Part shown: positions 3,723 to 50,633 of the stretch, piece after piece
Numbering within the stretch: position 1 is the first letter of the stretch
Layout of the letters: the number at the start of each line of letters is the position of its first letter
Origin: Phycisphaerae bacterium RAS2
GTDB lineage: Bacteria > Planctomycetota > Phycisphaerae > UBA1845 > UTPLA1
Reading direction: 5' to 3'
Length of the DNA stretch: 64,000 nucleotides
Assembly: GCA_007753915.1 (NCBI GenBank)
Contig: CP036352.1
Coordinates: 3,287,306-3,351,305 of the forward strand
The notes under the pieces: model-generated
What the model was told of the DNA's origin: nothing
The model's database searches: none
What the model saw: the letters and a program-made list of their open reading frames with translations, nothing else
Made by a program: the position numbers and the translations under genes

Positions 3723-3752
3723 TTGTCGGTCTGTTGATCCGGCCTGAAATTT

Positions 3753-3870
3753 CTGGTGGGTCGGTGAGGCTGACCCACCCTACGCACTGCAATTATTGGT
3801 GGGTCGATGCGGCTGACCCACCCTACGCACTGTAATCTCTGGTGGGTCGATGCGGCTGACCCACCCTACG
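3753..3870. repeat. Three tandemly spaced hairpin repeats (GGTGGGTC ... GACCCACCCTACGCA)
   Basis: Three copies of an approximately 45-base unit start near 3753, 3799 and 3841. Each holds GGTGGGTCG, a short spacer and GCTGACCCACCCTACGCA, so each can fold into a hairpin. They are inverted relatives of the 3370 unit and of the 1421-1720 cluster. The rest of the gap (3871-4139) shows no gene. Confidence 0.75.
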
Positions 3871-4139
3871 CAATCTGACCCGTCCTCCGCGCGAAGCCGA
3901 CTTTCAAATGATCCCCTTCTTCCCCCGCCACCATTGCCCAAACCGCCAGGACACCCCGTTCCTAATTCCCCGCCGGGCATGAGATTGCAAGCGCGGTGAC
4001 AGCTCCTGTCACCCGATTATTGCAAATTATTGACTCCGCGCAATGACTTCGCTAGGCTCGGTTCGGTTTCTGTGGGAACTATGCACTTAACAAACCAGCC
4101 TCTTGGCCACGAATCACGATAATTATCGGACATTGCGCG

Positions 4140-4310
4140 CTATTGCTTGCGCGGCTTCTTGGTGTCGCCGGGGGGCCGACGTTTCGGCTTTTTGGGCTGC
4201 TGCGCGCCGGCCTGCATCGCGCCGCGCAACAGGTCATCAAGCGAAATATCGGCTGCCTTAAGCCGTAACTGCCGTTTAGGCTTTGGTATACGGGGCTTTC
4301 GCTTTTTCAT
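4140..4310 (-). CDS. Small very basic protein of unknown function
   Basis: A 56-residue protein starting at the ATG at 4310, which has an AAGGA ribosome site about nine bases upstream. The reading frame is open further upstream, but without initiation signals. The protein opens with MKKRKPRIPKPKRQ, has a short central helix (DISLDDLLRGAMQAG) and ends in another Lys/Pro/Arg-rich stretch. It looks like a nucleic-acid-associated or unstructured protein. The central acidic-hydrophobic helix between two basic arms is the only recognisable architecture. It is divergent from the gene at 4618. Confidence 0.6.
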   Translation of the reverse strand: MKKRKPRIPKPKRQLRLKAADISLDDLLRGAMQAGAQQPKKPKRRPPGDTKKPRKQ

Positions 4311-4617
4311 CGCCTTGTTCCTTTGTGTTCGCCTGCAAATCGTTGTGTCTACAAGCGTTCTGGAGCTGAATTCTCGAAAGTAACAAGAAGGCGTTCGGCT
4401 AATAATTATAGCCAATGGCATTGGATTAGCAAGCTTGGAGCCGGATGAAGCCTCGATATTACAGTTGCAAACGTCATCGCCGGGCTCGCCAAAGGTTTGC
4501 AAGACGTTTAGTTTTTGGGTCGCCCAAGACAAAAACGATATCGTCTACGGATTAGGGGGGTTGCAAGTCGCCGTGTTGTGCCCTATCGTCGACACATCAA
4601 CCAGAAGGAAGTGACCG
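4311..4617. other. Divergent intergenic region without gene
   Basis: This 307-base stretch separates the divergent small genes at 4310 and 4618. It is richer in A and T (for example TAATAATTATAGCC near 4400) than the surrounding DNA and probably holds both promoters. No convincing reading frame or RNA was found. Confidence 0.4.
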
Positions 4618-4995
4618 ATGGAGTCGAATCGAGACAAACTGATTGAATCGTTGCGGAAGGAAATCAACGCCGCGCACCAAGAGGCGATCGCGGCGCTCGA
4701 GAAAATCAGCACGTTCGTCTCTCGCGATGTGGGCTTGAGCGTTGAAGTGACTGCTCCGGCGGCCTCTCGCCGCACTCGAAAACCTGTGCCCGTGCTGTCG
4801 AATCGCGATACGGTCATGAAGGCAATCGCGCGAGAATTCAAATCGGTGACACAGATCGCGAACGAGACTGGCCTTGAAAAGGCACAGGTCCGTGCTGTCG
4901 TCTACGAGAAGAAGCTCGCCGACATGCTGGAGCGCCGTAACAAAGGGGGGGCATTGGAATTTCGGCGGCACAGCGGGCTGCTGATTGGCAGTTAG
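4618..4995 (+). CDS. Small protein with coiled-coil start and winged-helix-like domain
   Basis: This 125-residue protein starts at an ATG with a GAAGGAAG ribosome site. Residues 1-35 form a charged helix (probable coiled coil). A basic linker rich in Arg/Lys/Pro follows. Residues about 60-105 (VMKAIAREFKSVTQIANETGLEKAQVRAVVYEKK, split here as two helices) resemble a winged-helix or sigma-region-4-like DNA-binding fold. It may be a small transcription factor. It sits immediately before a strong hairpin whose U-tract belongs to the opposite strand. No family name can be given. Confidence 0.6.
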   Translation: MESNRDKLIESLRKEINAAHQEAIAALEKISTFVSRDVGLSVEVTAPAASRRTRKPVPVLSNRDTVMKAIAREFKSVTQIANETGLEKAQVRAVVYEKKLADMLERRNKGGALEFRRHSGLLIGS

Positions 4996-5039
4996 AAAAA
5001 AAAACGGCCGGACCCGCGTAGGGCGCGGGTATCCGACCG
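4996..5039 (-). terminator. Strong rho-independent terminator on the minus strand
   Basis: On the minus strand an 8-bp outer stem (CGGTCGGA with TCCGGCCG), a two-base bulge and a 6-bp inner stem (CCCGCG with CGCGGG) close a CCCTA loop. They are followed by nine T residues. On the plus strand the nine A's precede the hairpin, so it cannot serve the gene ending at 4995 as a classical terminator. It implies a minus-strand transcript arriving from the right, across 5040-5264 and possibly antisense to the tRNA-like gene. No minus-strand protein gene lies directly upstream. Confidence 0.75.
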
Positions 5040-5160
5040 TAGTTCAGCGGCTCGGCCGCTCGTCCGGCCTCGGGGGTCGATAGCGAGCGGTCGGGCCTTG
5101 CTTAGGTCCGGCTTGGCGGGGTCCGTCCTGTTGACGGGGTGCCCTGCCGGGCCGGGCTGC

Positions 5161-5264
5161 GCGGGTGTGGCGGAATTGGAAGACGCGCCGGACTTGGGGT
5201 CCGGTGGGATGCCCTATTTGCGTAGGGAGCGCATCCCGTGCGGGATCGTTTCCCGCCACCCGCA
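5161..5264 (+). tRNA. Leucine-type (class II) tRNA with UGG (Pro) anticodon and oversized variable arm
   Basis: The 7-bp acceptor stem is GCGGGTG (5161-5167) with CACCCGC (5257-5263), and the discriminator is A5264. The D-arm (TGGCGGAATTGGAAGACGC) is nearly identical to bacterial tRNA-Leu. The anticodon stem CCGGA/TCCGG closes the loop CTTGGGG, giving anticodon TGG (5195-5197), which reads proline CCA. The variable region is about 35 bases, with stem GGGATG/CATCCC (5206-5211, 5232-5237) and inner stem CCCTA/TAGGG; normal tRNA-Leu has about 12-15. The T-stem is GCGGG/CCCGC but the loop is ATCGTTT, with positions 54 and 58 swapped relative to the usual T54/A58. No CCA is encoded. It may be a mistranslating tRNA, a tRNA mimic or a decaying gene. 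The ClpP-like gene begins 45 bases downstream. Confidence 0.75.
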
Positions 5265-5309
5265 TTTAAGTTAATCACGTGGATACGAGAAAGTCAAGGA
5301 GCGACTCGC

Positions 5310-5951
5310 ATGACACAAAGCCAGCCTCCGGAAGCGGTTACAGCAAACCCCCAATCATTGCCGCAGGGGCATTCAGCTAGTCTACCCCAACGACTGGATG
5401 TCGTTTACGTTTCGTTCTGCGCCGAAGTAAACCCAACCACTACTGAAGCGCTTCTCAAAACCTGCAGCGACCTTGCAAACCGCGGTGTAAGACAAATATA
5501 TTTATTGTTAAGCACCCCAGGCGGGGGCGTAAGCAATGGAATTACACTATTCAATGTGCTTCGGGCATTGCCGTGTCAATTAGTCACACATAATGTCGGA
5601 TCAGTTAATTCCATAGGTAATGTATTATTCTTAGCTGGAGAAATGCGATATGCGTCTCCGGGGACCACGTTCATGTTTCACGGAGTTGGATTTGATATAG
5701 TAGATCGTGTTAGGTTTGAAGAAAGGAATCTTGTCGAGCGACTACAGAGCATCCGGGCCGATCAAAAGAAGATCGCCGACATAATCCGCAGCAGAACTTC
5801 GTTCCCCAAGGATGGAGAAATCAAAAGACTCTTCTTGCAAGCCGCGACCAAGGATACTGCTTTTGCCAAAGAGCGGGGAATCATTCACGAAATCAGAGAA
5901 GCAAAGGTGCCCGACGGCGCACCCGTAGTGCAACTTGTATTCAAGCGATAG
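5310..5951 (+). CDS. ClpP-fold serine protease
   Basis: This 213-residue protein starts at an ATG with an AAGGAG ribosome site. It has the crotonase/ClpP fold: LLLSTPGGGVSNGITLFN matches the ClpP sequence around the oxyanion region. GSVNSIG holds the nucleophile Ser (about residue 101), MFHG the His (about residue 124) and TKDTAF the third-residue Asp (about 182). The length matches ClpP (about 200). It lacks a Clp ATPase neighbour. Its codons are clearly richer in A/T than those of neighbours (for example the stretch at 5490-5640), which suggests recent transfer. It follows the odd tRNA by 45 bases. It could act with host ClpX/ClpA-type ATPases or as an independent phage/defence-type peptidase. 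Confidence 0.85.
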   Translation: MTQSQPPEAVTANPQSLPQGHSASLPQRLDVVYVSFCAEVNPTTTEALLKTCSDLANRGVRQIYLLLSTPGGGVSNGITLFNVLRALPCQLVTHNVGSVNSIGNVLFLAGEMRYASPGTTFMFHGVGFDIVDRVRFEERNLVERLQSIRADQKKIADIIRSRTSFPKDGEIKRLFLQAATKDTAFAKERGIIHEIREAKVPDGAPVVQLVFKR

Positions 5952-6051
5952 CGCGTCGTTTTCTGGCCAATCAATGTTTTGTGTGCCGTATGCCATCCGC
6001 ATGATTATAACATCGACAACCGTGCGGCTCAAGCGTTAGGACCGGCCAAAA

Positions 6052-6951
6052 TCACCGATAAACAAGCCTTTTCCCTGGCGCTTGCCGTAGGGCTGCTTCC
6101 GTCCGCTCCGCGTCAGACACTTTCCGGTAGTTCCAGCGATAGGCGAACTCGTCGGCGTAGCGGTGAAGGTGCTGCTTGCCGCAATGGTGGAACGTTCCGT
6201 GAATGCCGCGCTTCAACAGGGCGAAGAACGACTCGGCCGTGTTGACGTGGGCATTGCCGCGAACGTACTCGTCGGCCGAGTGGTTCACCGTCTCATGTCC
6301 CGCGTAATCGCCCGTGATGTTCTTGTACGCTTGATTCTCGTCCGTCATTAAGACGGCATCCTTCTTGACGGTCGAATCAATCGCCTGCCGGAGATTGTCT
6401 TTCGTCACCTTGCCATAGACTTGGGTGCGCATGTTCCCGCCGCGCTCAATCAAGGCGACTACGGGCGTCTTATTGTCCTGCCAGCGATTCGGGCCGTTTG
6501 GTTGGCGACGGCGGGGACCAACCCACGTTTCATCGACTTCCACGGTCCCGCCCAGCATCGTCGCCAATGGCTCTTGTCGCATCGCCCAGCGAATCCGGTG
6601 GGCCATGTGCCAAGCGGACTTGTACGACGCAAGGCCTAGCATCCGTTGAAGCTGGAGGGCCGAGATACCCTTCTTGGACGTGCAAACGAGGTAGAAGGCC
6701 GCAACCCACTTGGACAGCGGAATATGCGACCGCTCGAAGATCGTGCCAACCGTCACCGTAAACTGCTTCCGGCAGGCCGGACCCTTGCACTTGTAAACGC
6801 CGGGCCGGGTTGCCTTGCCCTTTAGCTTGACATACTCCAAGTCGCCACAATGGGGGCAGAATGGGCCGTCGGGCCAGCGGAGCGATTCAAGGTAATCGCG
6901 GGCCTGTTCTTCCGTCAGGGACATGAATTGCTTGTATTTCGCAGTTTTCAT
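6052..6951 (-). CDS. IS1595-family (ISXO2-like) transposase
   Basis: This 299-residue transposase has an N-terminal zinc ribbon (FCPHCG at about 31 and YKCKGPACRKQF at about 54). A DDE-type catalytic domain follows: VEVDETWVG (Asp about 140), VLMTDENQAYK (Asp about 204) and NAHVNTAESFFALLKRG (Glu about 240), with the family-typical HGTFHH segment after it. The frame is intact and full length. I could not find convincing terminal inverted repeats on both sides. An 8-base inverted pair TGCCCTAA/TTAGGGCA at 6951-6958 and 7007-7014 flanks only its promoter. It may be a functional IS or an immobilised copy. Confidence 0.93.
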   Translation of the reverse strand: MKTAKYKQFMSLTEEQARDYLESLRWPDGPFCPHCGDLEYVKLKGKATRPGVYKCKGPACRKQFTVTVGTIFERSHIPLSKWVAAFYLVCTSKKGISALQLQRMLGLASYKSAWHMAHRIRWAMRQEPLATMLGGTVEVDETWVGPRRRQPNGPNRWQDNKTPVVALIERGGNMRTQVYGKVTKDNLRQAIDSTVKKDAVLMTDENQAYKNITGDYAGHETVNHSADEYVRGNAHVNTAESFFALLKRGIHGTFHHCGKQHLHRYADEFAYRWNYRKVSDAERTEAALRQAPGKRLVYR

Positions 6952-7014
6952 GCCCTAAGTATAAGACATTTTGTTTGGTTTGTCAAGTGAATAATTCCCG
7001 TTTCTGTTAGGGCA
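6951..7014. promoter_or_regulatory. Divergent promoter region flanked by an 8-base inverted repeat
   Basis: TGCCCTAA (6951-6958) and TTAGGGCA (7007-7014) form an exact inverted pair around an AT-rich spacer between the transposase start and the gene at 7031. The spacer must hold the transposase promoter. The repeat could be an operator or part of an IS end. Confidence 0.35.
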
Positions 7015-17989: not shown

Positions 17990-18028
17990 GCAACTTCCGC
18001 GCGGCATCCATCCGGTGTGCGATACGTT

Positions 18029-18119
18029 GCGCCAATTCGTCGCGCCAATTCGTCGCGCCAATTCGTCGCGCCAATTCGTCGCGCCAATTCGTCGCGCCAA
18101 TTCGTCGCGCCAATTCGTT
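18029..18119. repeat. Seven perfect tandem copies of a 13-base unit (GCGCCAATTCGTC)
   Basis: Starting at 18029 the unit GCGCCAATTCGTC is repeated seven times without gaps, the last copy ending in T. A degenerate eighth copy follows. It lies between the stop of the propeller gene and its terminator. There are no spacers, so it is a simple tandem repeat and not a CRISPR. Confidence 0.95.
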
Positions 18120-18166
18120 GCGCCGATTCCGAATGACGCCGCGCGACGCGTTTTTCTTCTCCCCTC

Positions 18167-23874: not shown

Positions 23875-23917
23875 TCCCCAAGCCCGCCCTCCGCTCTCCG
23901 CGCCTTTGTTTCGACTT

Positions 23918-23944
23918 TTCGACGTTTCGACGTTTCGACGTTTC
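23918..23944. repeat. TTTCGACG repeat directly after the pyrD stop codon
   Basis: On the plus strand the sequence reads as near-tandem TTTCGAC/TTTTCGACG units (about four copies). It ends exactly at the stop codon of the minus-strand pyrD gene. The same unit follows two other minus-strand genes, at 27676-27721 and 34996-35024. Confidence 0.8.
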
Positions 23945-27610: not shown

Positions 27611-27675
27611 CCCCTCGCGATCCCCATCCCCCTCAACTTTGTTCCCTTTTCTCGCCACGCCTCCATATCGCCGTT

Positions 27676-27721
27676 TCGACTTTTCGACGTTTCGACGTTT
27701 CGACTTTTCGCCGTTTCTCCC
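27676..27721. repeat. TTTCGACG repeat directly after the PTPS-type gene stop codon
   Basis: The second locus of the TTTCGAC family: about five near-tandem units (GTTTCGACTTTTCGACG and variants) between 27676 and 27715, ending just before the stop of the minus-strand gene at 27722. Confidence 0.8.
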
Positions 27722-28534
27722 TCACTCCCCCGCATACTCGGCATACGTCTTAGCCGTCTCATACACCCGCACGCGAAGCAATCGCGCCGGCTTGAGCGGT
27801 GCCTCCAGAAACCCCCAGATCACCCGCGCGATGTTCTCCACCGACGGATTCACACTGGCGAACTCCGCCACATCGCTGTTCAAGTGCTTGTGGTCCAGTC
27901 GATCGATCACCTCGCGCTTCACCACCGACTCAAAGTGCGGTACTTCCACCACCGTCCCGCGATCAGCCGTCAGCTCCCCGCCCACCGTCACGCGCACTTC
28001 GTAGTTATGCCCGTGCCCGTTTGGATTGTTGCATTTGCCGAACACGCGACGATTCGCCTCGTCCGACAGCGACGCCACGTGCAGCCGATGCGACGCCGAA
28101 AACTCAAAACTCTGCGTCAGTTCCACCATTCCCGGTCGCCTCCCGTCGATCCGACTCGACAAATACGGCGTCGCCGCCAACGTCAGCGACTCCAACTGAC
28201 ATCCTTTTGGCACTCGCCCGGCCACCTCCGCAAAGATGTCCGCCAGCAACCGCTCAATCGTCAGCGATACCCCGCGCACCGCCAGCGCTCGCGCCGCCGC
28301 AGGAATCGCATACCGCCGCAGCAACTCGTCCAGCACCTGAATGTTGACAAGATACCCTGTCGTCGCGTCCGGCTCGCCACTCACCACGATCCGTAGCATC
28401 AGGTACGGCGCGACCCCAACCGCCGAAGGCCACCCGCCCCACGAATTCGTCACCGGCAGCGCGCCTTCGAACCCGCTCGCCCCGTGCGCGGCCCGCGCCC
28501 AGTCGCGATCGATCGAAAATCGAATCTCCCGCAT
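27722..28534 (-). CDS. Two-domain 6-pyruvoyl-tetrahydropterin synthase / QueD-family protein
   Basis: A 270-residue protein from the ATG at 28534. The C-terminal half (about 140-270) is a complete PTPS/QueD domain: FSASHRLHV supplies the first zinc His, FGKCNNPNGHGHNYEVRVTV the catalytic Cys and two more zinc His, and DHKHLN and PSVENIARVIW follow. The enzyme converts dihydroneopterin triphosphate to carboxy- or pyruvoyl-tetrahydropterin for queuosine or pterin synthesis. The N-terminal half (IRFSIDRDWARAAHG ... YLVNIQVLDELLRRYAIP) looks like a second, degenerate copy without the zinc ligands. The frame is open to 28651. It lies downstream of the NADAR gene on the same strand. Confidence 0.85.
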   Translation of the reverse strand: MREIRFSIDRDWARAAHGASGFEGALPVTNSWGGWPSAVGVAPYLMLRIVVSGEPDATTGYLVNIQVLDELLRRYAIPAAARALAVRGVSLTIERLLADIFAEVAGRVPKGCQLESLTLAATPYLSSRIDGRRPGMVELTQSFEFSASHRLHVASLSDEANRRVFGKCNNPNGHGHNYEVRVTVGGELTADRGTVVEVPHFESVVKREVIDRLDHKHLNSDVAEFASVNPSVENIARVIWGFLEAPLKPARLLRVRVYETAKTYAEYAGE

Positions 28535-39263: not shown

Positions 39264-39309
39264 CGCGCCCGAGAGGATTCGAACCTCCGACCTGCGGTTT
39301 AGGAAACCG
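39264..39309 (-). tRNA. 3' fragment of a tRNA-Arg(CCT) gene; probable attachment-site half
   Basis: On the minus strand the sequence from CGGTTTCCTAAACCG (anticodon loop, CCT) through the T-arm GGAGGTTCGAATCCTCT to the acceptor 3' strand CGGGCGC plus G is a normal tRNA-Arg 3' half. The matching 5' acceptor strand (GCGCCCG) and D-arm are absent on the other side, so the gene is truncated just 5' of the anticodon loop. This is the form left at the distal end of an element integrated into the 3' end of a tRNA gene. The element would extend to the right. Confidence 0.85.
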
Positions 39310-39391
39310 GAGGGAGTCCTTATCGACACGCGACTTACGCGAGCGCTTACCCTCTTTCTTACCGGATTCACCGGAAGCTGACAAACATGGG

Positions 39392-50457: not shown

Positions 50458-50504
50458 TGGGTAGGGCCGGAATTGAACCGGCGACACACGGATTTTCAGT
50501 CCGT
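50458..50504 (-). tRNA. 3' fragment of a tRNA-Phe(GAA) gene; probable second attachment-site half
   Basis: On the minus strand ACGGACTGAAAATCCGT is a complete tRNA-Phe anticodon arm (GAA). It is followed by GTGTCGCCGGTTCAATTCCGGC (variable region and T-arm; shown here in parts) and the acceptor 3' strand CCTACCC plus A. The 5' acceptor strand GGGTAGG and a proper D-arm are not found upstream; only a weak GTTGTTAGACCA similarity remains. This is a truncated tRNA gene of the kind left by integration into a tRNA 3' end. Confidence 0.8.
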
Positions 50505-50633
50505 TGATCCGGCTGGTCTAACAACTTCGGCGACGGTGATTTCGCACCATCAAGAATAAGCTTGGCGATTCGCTTGGCGAATGATCGCACCGGCCTCGCA
50601 TCCGCCTGACGAAAAGGCCGTGCGAAAGAACTG

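Follow-up and report, generated by a model that had tools for sequence, protein, structure and literature searches.

Among bacterial tRNAs whose body and anticodon disagree is the tRNA-ProX family, reportedly described in Streptomyces and Kitasatospora by Vargas-Rodriguez in 2021 and Schuntermann in 2023. In one account, these tRNAs combine a proline body with an alanine, asparagine or threonine anticodon, have a dedicated synthetase, ProRSx, and cause mistranslation (PMC10365949). On that evidence, tRNA-ProX is the nearest known system in kind to the gene reported here: each is a bacterial tRNA with a mismatch between body and anticodon and with a conserved neighbour gene, although tRNA-ProX mistranslates whereas mistranslation is here proposed. 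The present gene differs in its leucine body and proline anticodon and in its IS1595-family carrier, and no synthetase gene is seen among the open reading frames (ORFs) of the element that holds it. CreT RNAs of CreTA modules, as accounts portray them, offer another likeness, being RNAs that target translation and are able to support an addiction module; CreT, however, works by sequestering a tRNA, and a CRISPR effector represses it, whereas the RNA considered here is itself a tRNA fold.

The carrier resembles IS1595-family transposons with cargo in its transposase domains, short inverted repeats, 8-bp duplications and protein cargo. The open-licence literature, as far as it was searched and in the excerpts it provides, holds no report of tRNA cargo in IS1595 or other transposons; an earlier mention elsewhere is possible. 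The cargo RNA itself resembles bacterial class II tRNA-Leu in identity-relevant positions, in variable-arm orientation and in A73, but has a non-leucine anticodon, a variable arm of 27-34 nt in 11 of the 31 family members collected below and, in some, two stems with a 3' bulge. The tRNA-bearing IS1595 family is real and conserved, and the searches made turned up no earlier report of it.

A tRNA-like gene inside an IS1595-family transposon

The window, by which we mean the whole 64,000-nt stretch of DNA analysed, comes from Phycisphaerae bacterium RAS2 (GCA_007753915.1, CP036352.1, positions 3,287,306-3,351,305, forward strand). Features of the element, in window coordinates, are as follows.

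4066-4073, no strand: 8-bp target-site duplication GTTTCTGT, left copy, identical to 7000-7007
4074-4096, plus strand: left terminal inverted repeat, 17 of 20 bases equal to the right repeat
4140-4310, minus strand: small basic ORF, 56 aa, SLDDLLRGAMQ...KKPKRR, recurring at the element end opposite the transposase
4618-4995, plus strand: ORF upstream of the tRNA, for a 125-aa protein with a helical N-terminal part and a helix-turn-helix-like part
5161-5264, plus strand: tRNA-like gene, leucine-type class II body, 104 nt, anticodon UGG at 5195-5197, A73 at 5264
5206-5237, plus strand: two-stem variable arm with 3' bulge AGCG, predicted fold (arms of at least 27 nt in 11 of 31 members)
5310-5951, plus strand: ClpP-like serine protease gene, 45 nt downstream of the tRNA (PF00574, 52.5 bits, cut-off 20.2)
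6052-6951, minus strand: IS1595-family transposase, 299 aa, frame intact (PF12762, 140.4 bits, cut-off 27; PF12760, 51.5 bits, cut-off 25.4)
6977-6999, minus strand: right terminal inverted repeat, pairing with the left repeat
7000-7007, no strand: 8-bp target-site duplication GTTTCTGT, right copy, 8 of 8 bases matching the left copy

The gene at 5161-5264 is thus enclosed by a complete IS1595-family transposon of 2,926 bp (4074-6999), with transposase domains, inverted repeats and an 8-bp duplication all present. In the congener G001 the target sequence occurs as a single copy at the aligned site, where it reads GTTTATGT. The joined window flanks are identical to G001 at 741 of 826 bases, with one repeat copy and no gap at the junction, and the G001 locus is therefore an empty site. 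ORFs like the small basic one were seen by eye in L170, L191, L419, L420 and L430; a longer frame, 4143-4532, has no Pfam match, and the 125-aa protein matches no Pfam family past cut-off. The ClpP-like protein has 14 relatives on viral contigs in IMG/VR, at 35-56% identity. Between the winged helix-turn-helix (wHTH)-like gene and the tRNA, nine A residues followed by a GC-rich hairpin (4996-5039) look like a terminator for the minus strand.

The initial annotation, made from sequence alone, described a leucine-type tRNA body with a proline (UGG) anticodon, and both parts of that description hold. The acceptor stem (GCGGGTG/CACCCGC) and the A discriminator are as in bacterial tRNA-Leu, the D-arm (GCGGAATTGGAAGACGC) and anticodon stem (CCGGA/TCCGG) are of the same type, and the loop C32 U33 U34 G35 G36 G37 G38 (CTTGGGG) gives the anticodon UGG. 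The variable arm, put earlier at about 35 bases with two stacked stems, measures 33 nt if counted from position 44 through the closing stem, or 35 with the two bases before the T stem included; its predicted fold stacks an inner stem CCCTA/TAGGG on an outer stem GGGATG/CATCCC, with the AGCG bulge on the 3' side. The T-loop reads AUCGUUU, that is, A54/U58, which bears out the swap reported at these positions. The picture of a mismatched body and anticodon therefore stands, while the transposon context, in which the gene is IS1595-family cargo, had been missed. Among tRNA-Leu features, A73, A15:U48, U8:A14 and G18G19 are all present, whereas the U54:A58 tertiary pair and a leucine anticodon (NAG, UAA or CAA) are absent. 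Among tRNA-Pro features, G35, G36 and A73 are present, whereas G72 and G15:C48 are replaced by C72 and A15:U48.

A whole-genome search matched the gene to RF00005 over its full length at 46.8 bits (gathering threshold 29), and both ARAGORN and a filtered cmscan of the window missed it. The folding energy is -57.7 kcal/mol (z -3.96; none of 200 shuffles equally stable), and the fold is far beyond chance because it recurs in 30 other sequences with two-sided changes in 22 of 23 pairs. The host genome, a single contig of 4.32 Mb, has normal tRNA-Pro genes with the anticodons CGG, GGG and UGG alongside five normal tRNA-Leu genes, and the gene in the transposon is therefore an extra one. An intron-bearing tRNA-Leu(UAA) of the group I type was considered and rejected, as the anticodon stem closes directly and there is no distant 3' half.

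Collection of the family

Plain DNA similarity returned only 5' parts of tRNA-Leu-like genes in relatives, among the matches listed, and a scan of 392 genomes of the phylum with a pattern joining the leucine body to UGG, up to two mismatches being allowed, brought up no further example. The pattern had been set too tightly, since five members from genomes of the same sample surfaced later through their transposases. Exact pattern scans gave 23 stretches in 84,980 genomes and 5 in IMG/VR. Many stretches matching the CTT/GGG pattern resemble, by eye, tRNA-Leu(UAA) genes with a group I intron, and these were excluded from counts. ARAGORN called tRNA-Pro(UGG) in L136, L140, L143, L147, L148, L149, L151 and L152, and L154 shows an uninterrupted cloverleaf with a long variable arm. 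In a cross-check, an IS1595 transposase was found in L136, L140, L143, L151, L154 and L163, and none in L147, L148, L149 or L152. Another Leu-type UGG tRNA, L153 774-882, has an anticodon arm forming a long hairpin and lies upstream of a gene that by eye resembles a tyrosine integrase.

The ClpP search of IMG/VR found a tRNA at one of the 14 close relatives, several of whose loci end early upstream, so that ClpP is not a constant partner of the tRNA. At that one locus, L163, an IS1595 transposase and ClpP both lie downstream of a leucine-type tRNA whose anticodon is AGG and whose variable arm has two stems. When relatives, plasmids and phages were searched by way of ClpP, distant ClpP alone came up.

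The family as collected has 31 members including the window copy, most of them beside an IS1595 transposase. L295, L296 and L149 were kept with no transposase in the examined stretch (L149 has one inverted-repeat end). Left out of counts were L144, L147, L148, L152 and L153 (Leu-type UGG, examined stretch lacking an IS1595 transposase), L223 and one match in L445 (class I tRNA genes in elements, GGA and ACU), and also L130, L141, L155, L276, L280, L282, L286 and L234. Duplicates were removed (L154=L182, L269=L196, L275=L163, L289=L174, L294=L292, L251=L418, L257=L420, L263=L419). Model R1 was built from 13 sequences including L152, 12 of them NGG; its anticodon columns slightly favour NGG, and its training members match by construction. 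Twenty members, found through transposase or ClpP searches, are referred to as reached without using the anticodon. Six of these are in the R1 training set (L163, L174, L179, L182, L191 and L196), and L163, L174, L182 and L196 were also picked up by anticodon patterns, L182 (as L154) first in that way.

Conservation of the fold and of the anticodon

The initial annotation had named decayed homologues lacking covariation as one outcome that would tell against it, and what was found is the reverse. In the alignment of all 31 members (A5), which was fitted to the model and hence leans towards structure, 98.9% of cells are paired and 22 of 23 base pairs show two-sided changes; covariation is 0.836 versus 0.213 when shuffled, none of 500 shuffles reaching as high. 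A73, A15:U48 and U8:A14 occur in all 31 and G18G19 in 29. Position 72 is C in 28 members, G in two and U in one, and C48 occurs in none of the 31. U54:A58 is present in 30, the A54/U58 swap being private to the window copy among the 31. In a phage tRNA array, L205 74-1140 (minus strand), some members have A54 T-loops (ATCGA, ATCGT), and the window's loop is therefore not unique. Two stems and a 3' bulge appear in the variable-arm folds of the window, L163, L423 and L430; L420 and L449 have no long variable arm, and the D-loops of L418 and L419 are altered.

Anticodons in the 31 are UGG (25), AGG (2), GGG, GGA, UGC and UUA (one each). Among the 20 reached without using the anticodon the counts are UGG (15), AGG (2), GGA, UGC and UUA (one each), that is, NGG in 17 and a leucine anticodon in none. 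G35-G36 is kept in 28 of the 31, and A37 is found in 23. U33 is retained in 13 of the 20; the other seven (C in five, A in one, G in one) all keep G35-G36. Over the whole family U33 stands in 24 of 31, a count affected by the anticodon patterns, which fixed U33 or a pyrimidine there (7 of 31 are non-U33).

It is thus near certain that an IS1595-family transposon carries the gene as cargo and that the gene is one of a family with a leucine-type body and a mostly NGG anticodon. The persistence of this mismatch in related elements from several groups of bacteria suggests a selected function rather than decay.

Association with IS1595 elements and other cargo

In transposase-led searches, R1 places a tRNA next to the transposase at 6 IMG/VR loci out of the best 80 of 581 (some being repeats), at 3 of 14 loci of the order, at 5 of 12 of the phylum, and at 5 of 17 loci from the class search, where L435 and L441 repeat earlier loci. 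The tRNA is therefore a minority cargo of IS1595 elements. The reverse test in IMG/VR, among the matches listed, gave a transposase match at 9 of 12 contiguous NGG Leu-type genes versus 0 of 80 loci with ordinary leucine anticodons (Fisher p=2.5e-10), where the 12 score at least 75 bits where the pattern matches, L292 and L294 are one element, some of the nine matches are fragments (L277, L284, L292, L294), and the control pattern was stricter in the D-loop than the NGG pattern. Counting three lower-scoring matches that lack a transposase (L276, L282, L286) makes it 9 of 15.

Complete elements, with inverted repeats and 8-bp duplications, contain 13 of the 31 members (window, L143, L151, L182, L170, L191, L418, L424, L430, L431, L440, L442 and L439), while L174, L179, L196 and L453 lie between repeats with no matching duplication. 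The L430 element, of 1,709 bp, looks minimal, only a transposase, the small ORF and the tRNA being seen in it. A midpoint-rooted tree of 96 transposases predates the last ten members and omits five tRNA-bearing rows on account of their shortness; each of the 13 tRNA-bearing rows in it falls outside a well-supported clade of 62 rows (100/99).

In 11 of 31 loci (window, L163, L143, L174, L420, L419, L277, L284, L295, L170 and L423) an ORF for a helical and wHTH-like protein was seen by eye no more than 500 nt from the tRNA; eight such proteins were scanned, and none matched a Pfam family past cut-off. Other cargo beside the tRNA includes ClpP (window, L163), SLFN_AlbA_2 (L151), NYN (L420), DUF3800 (L419) and DUF4760 (L174), and by eye cargo is also present in IS1595 elements lacking the tRNA. 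PADLOC gave matches, suggestive only, for the cargo of L151, L419 and L420, and none for the window ClpP.

Other tRNA-like sequences accompany these elements. Class I tRNA genes lie within complete IS1595 elements at L223 5119-5192 (GGA) and L445 2473-2546 (ACU). Short tRNA-like folds of 67-71 nt, with a reduced D-arm, a T-arm and A73, occur in or near IS1595 elements at L197 3183-3249, L232 2514-2582, L241 5659-5727, L185 4977-5044, L243 1224-1291 (outside its element) and L433 2666-2736. The first five of these have a common GGCTTYCNAYC loop and transposases of the derived clade.

Possible function of the RNA

One source places U8:A14, A15:U48, A73 and G18G19 among the tRNA-Leu determinants of E. 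coli and A. aeolicus, lists U54:A58 as important for leucine identity in E. coli, and gives the bacterial tRNA-Pro identity set as A73, G72, G15:C48 and G35-G37 (PMC9976931). Leucine charging would be expected because the leucine set is present, save for U54:A58 in the window copy. Judged from sequence, proline identity is lacking (G72 in 2 of 31, C48 in none), and the host ProRS is of the bacterial type, with host tRNA-Pro having C1:G72. The mechanism that we tentatively favour, short of calling it probable, is that of a cargo tRNA which accepts leucine and reads proline codons, with mistranslation benefiting the element. The RNA would be transcribed and processed, charged with leucine by host LeuRS, for which the anticodon should not be needed, and would then compete with tRNA-Pro at CCA and other CCN codons; low-level Pro-to-Leu mistranslation could result, with a stress- or addiction-like benefit to the element. 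In some elements the neighbouring wHTH-like protein may regulate the effect, and ClpP would be associated cargo in the window copy. The invariant A73, A15:U48 and U8:A14 and the lack of leucine anticodons in relatives are consistent with leucine charging and proline misreading, and the GGA, UGC and UUA exceptions are likewise non-leucine, as expected if the tRNAs were selected for reading other codons with leucine. The fuller proposition, that a leucine-identity tRNA with its anticodon moved mostly to proline codons is an encoded mistranslator spread by transposition as an RNA effector (a module for addiction, stress or defence), sometimes accompanied by a wHTH regulator and by varying protein effectors (ClpP, Schlafen-like, NYN, DUF3800), is speculative and, in our estimate, rather unlikely.

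Several observations count against a mistranslator. U33, needed for the normal anticodon turn, is absent in seven of 20; the long variable arm is missing from L420 and L449, and the D-loops of L418 and L419 and the T-loop of the window depart from the norm. A37 next to G36 is unusual for a reader of proline codons. Transposases of tRNA-bearing elements do not avoid CCA but use more of it, the CCA share of proline codons being 0.186 versus 0.086 in other transposases (16 versus 94 genes; p=0.001 with kinship ignored, confounded by host phylogeny, and with L431 and L433 counted as negatives). The same figure, with the same confounding, would suit an auxiliary proline tRNA, prolylated by way of G35, G36 and A73 and supplying CCA decoding for the element, as would A73 in every member and G35-G36 in 28. 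This proline-accepting alternative is nevertheless weaker than a mistranslator or a mimic and appears improbable: 28 members have C72 and one U72 in place of G72, all 31 have A15:U48 instead of G15:C48, and the host already has three tRNA-Pro genes along with its bacterial-type ProRS.

Nearly as likely as the leucine-accepting mistranslator, though still doubtful, is a non-decoding tRNA mimic, a decoy, sensor or regulator whose cloverleaf and G35-G36 would be recognised by a protein, possibly ProRS, LeuRS, an enzyme that processes RNA or cuts anticodons, or the wHTH protein of the element. Retention of GG while U33 varies is what a protein-recognised mimic would show, and the D- and T-loop departures (L418, L419, window) and the frequent wHTH-like partner point the same way. 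Against a mimic speak GGA, UGC and UUA in three of 20 members, the avoidance of leucine anticodons in all 20, and the invariance of A15:U48 and A73; furthermore, no wHTH is seen in the complete element L430, so that this partner is not obligatory. The position of the tRNA between genes, often convergent with the transposase, and the shorter tRNA-like folds in the derived transposase clade would fit an RNA-processing or transcript-boundary element, at which cleavage by RNase P and Z would cut cargo transcripts apart or keep the transposase insulated, but the conserved NGG anticodon and invariant A15:U48 would go unexplained, and we consider this quite improbable. A decaying copy of tRNA-Leu(UAG) captured by chance, one change away from UGG, is very unlikely: the unusual T-loop of the window and the miss by ARAGORN would agree with it, yet the family-wide covariation and an anticodon class common to distant elements contradict it for the family, and T-loops of the ATCGT type also occur in the L205 phage array.

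If the mistranslation mechanism is true, a source of mistranslation is encoded on mobile elements of several groups of bacteria, and an annotation pipeline that meets a mismatched tRNA should look for a transposon around it before dismissing it as a pseudogene. If the RNA is a mimic, it would be a new conserved tRNA-like RNA with a protein target. Either way, as far as searched, short RNA genes have been overlooked in a well-known insertion sequence family.

Other observations in the window

At 50466-50520 (minus strand) lies the 3' part of a tRNA-Phe gene (RF00005, 30 bits), equal to the 3' half of the host tRNA-Phe; it resembles a remnant of the attachment site of an integrative element. At 39264-39333 (minus strand) ARAGORN calls a tRNA-Arg(CCU) whose 3' half is common with the host tRNA-Arg(CCU) gene and which has no normal 5' half, probably another such remnant. 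Short tandem arrays, with units of 13 bp, 8 bp and 43 bp, occur at 18009-18151, 23879-23944, 27628-27725 and 3744-3872.
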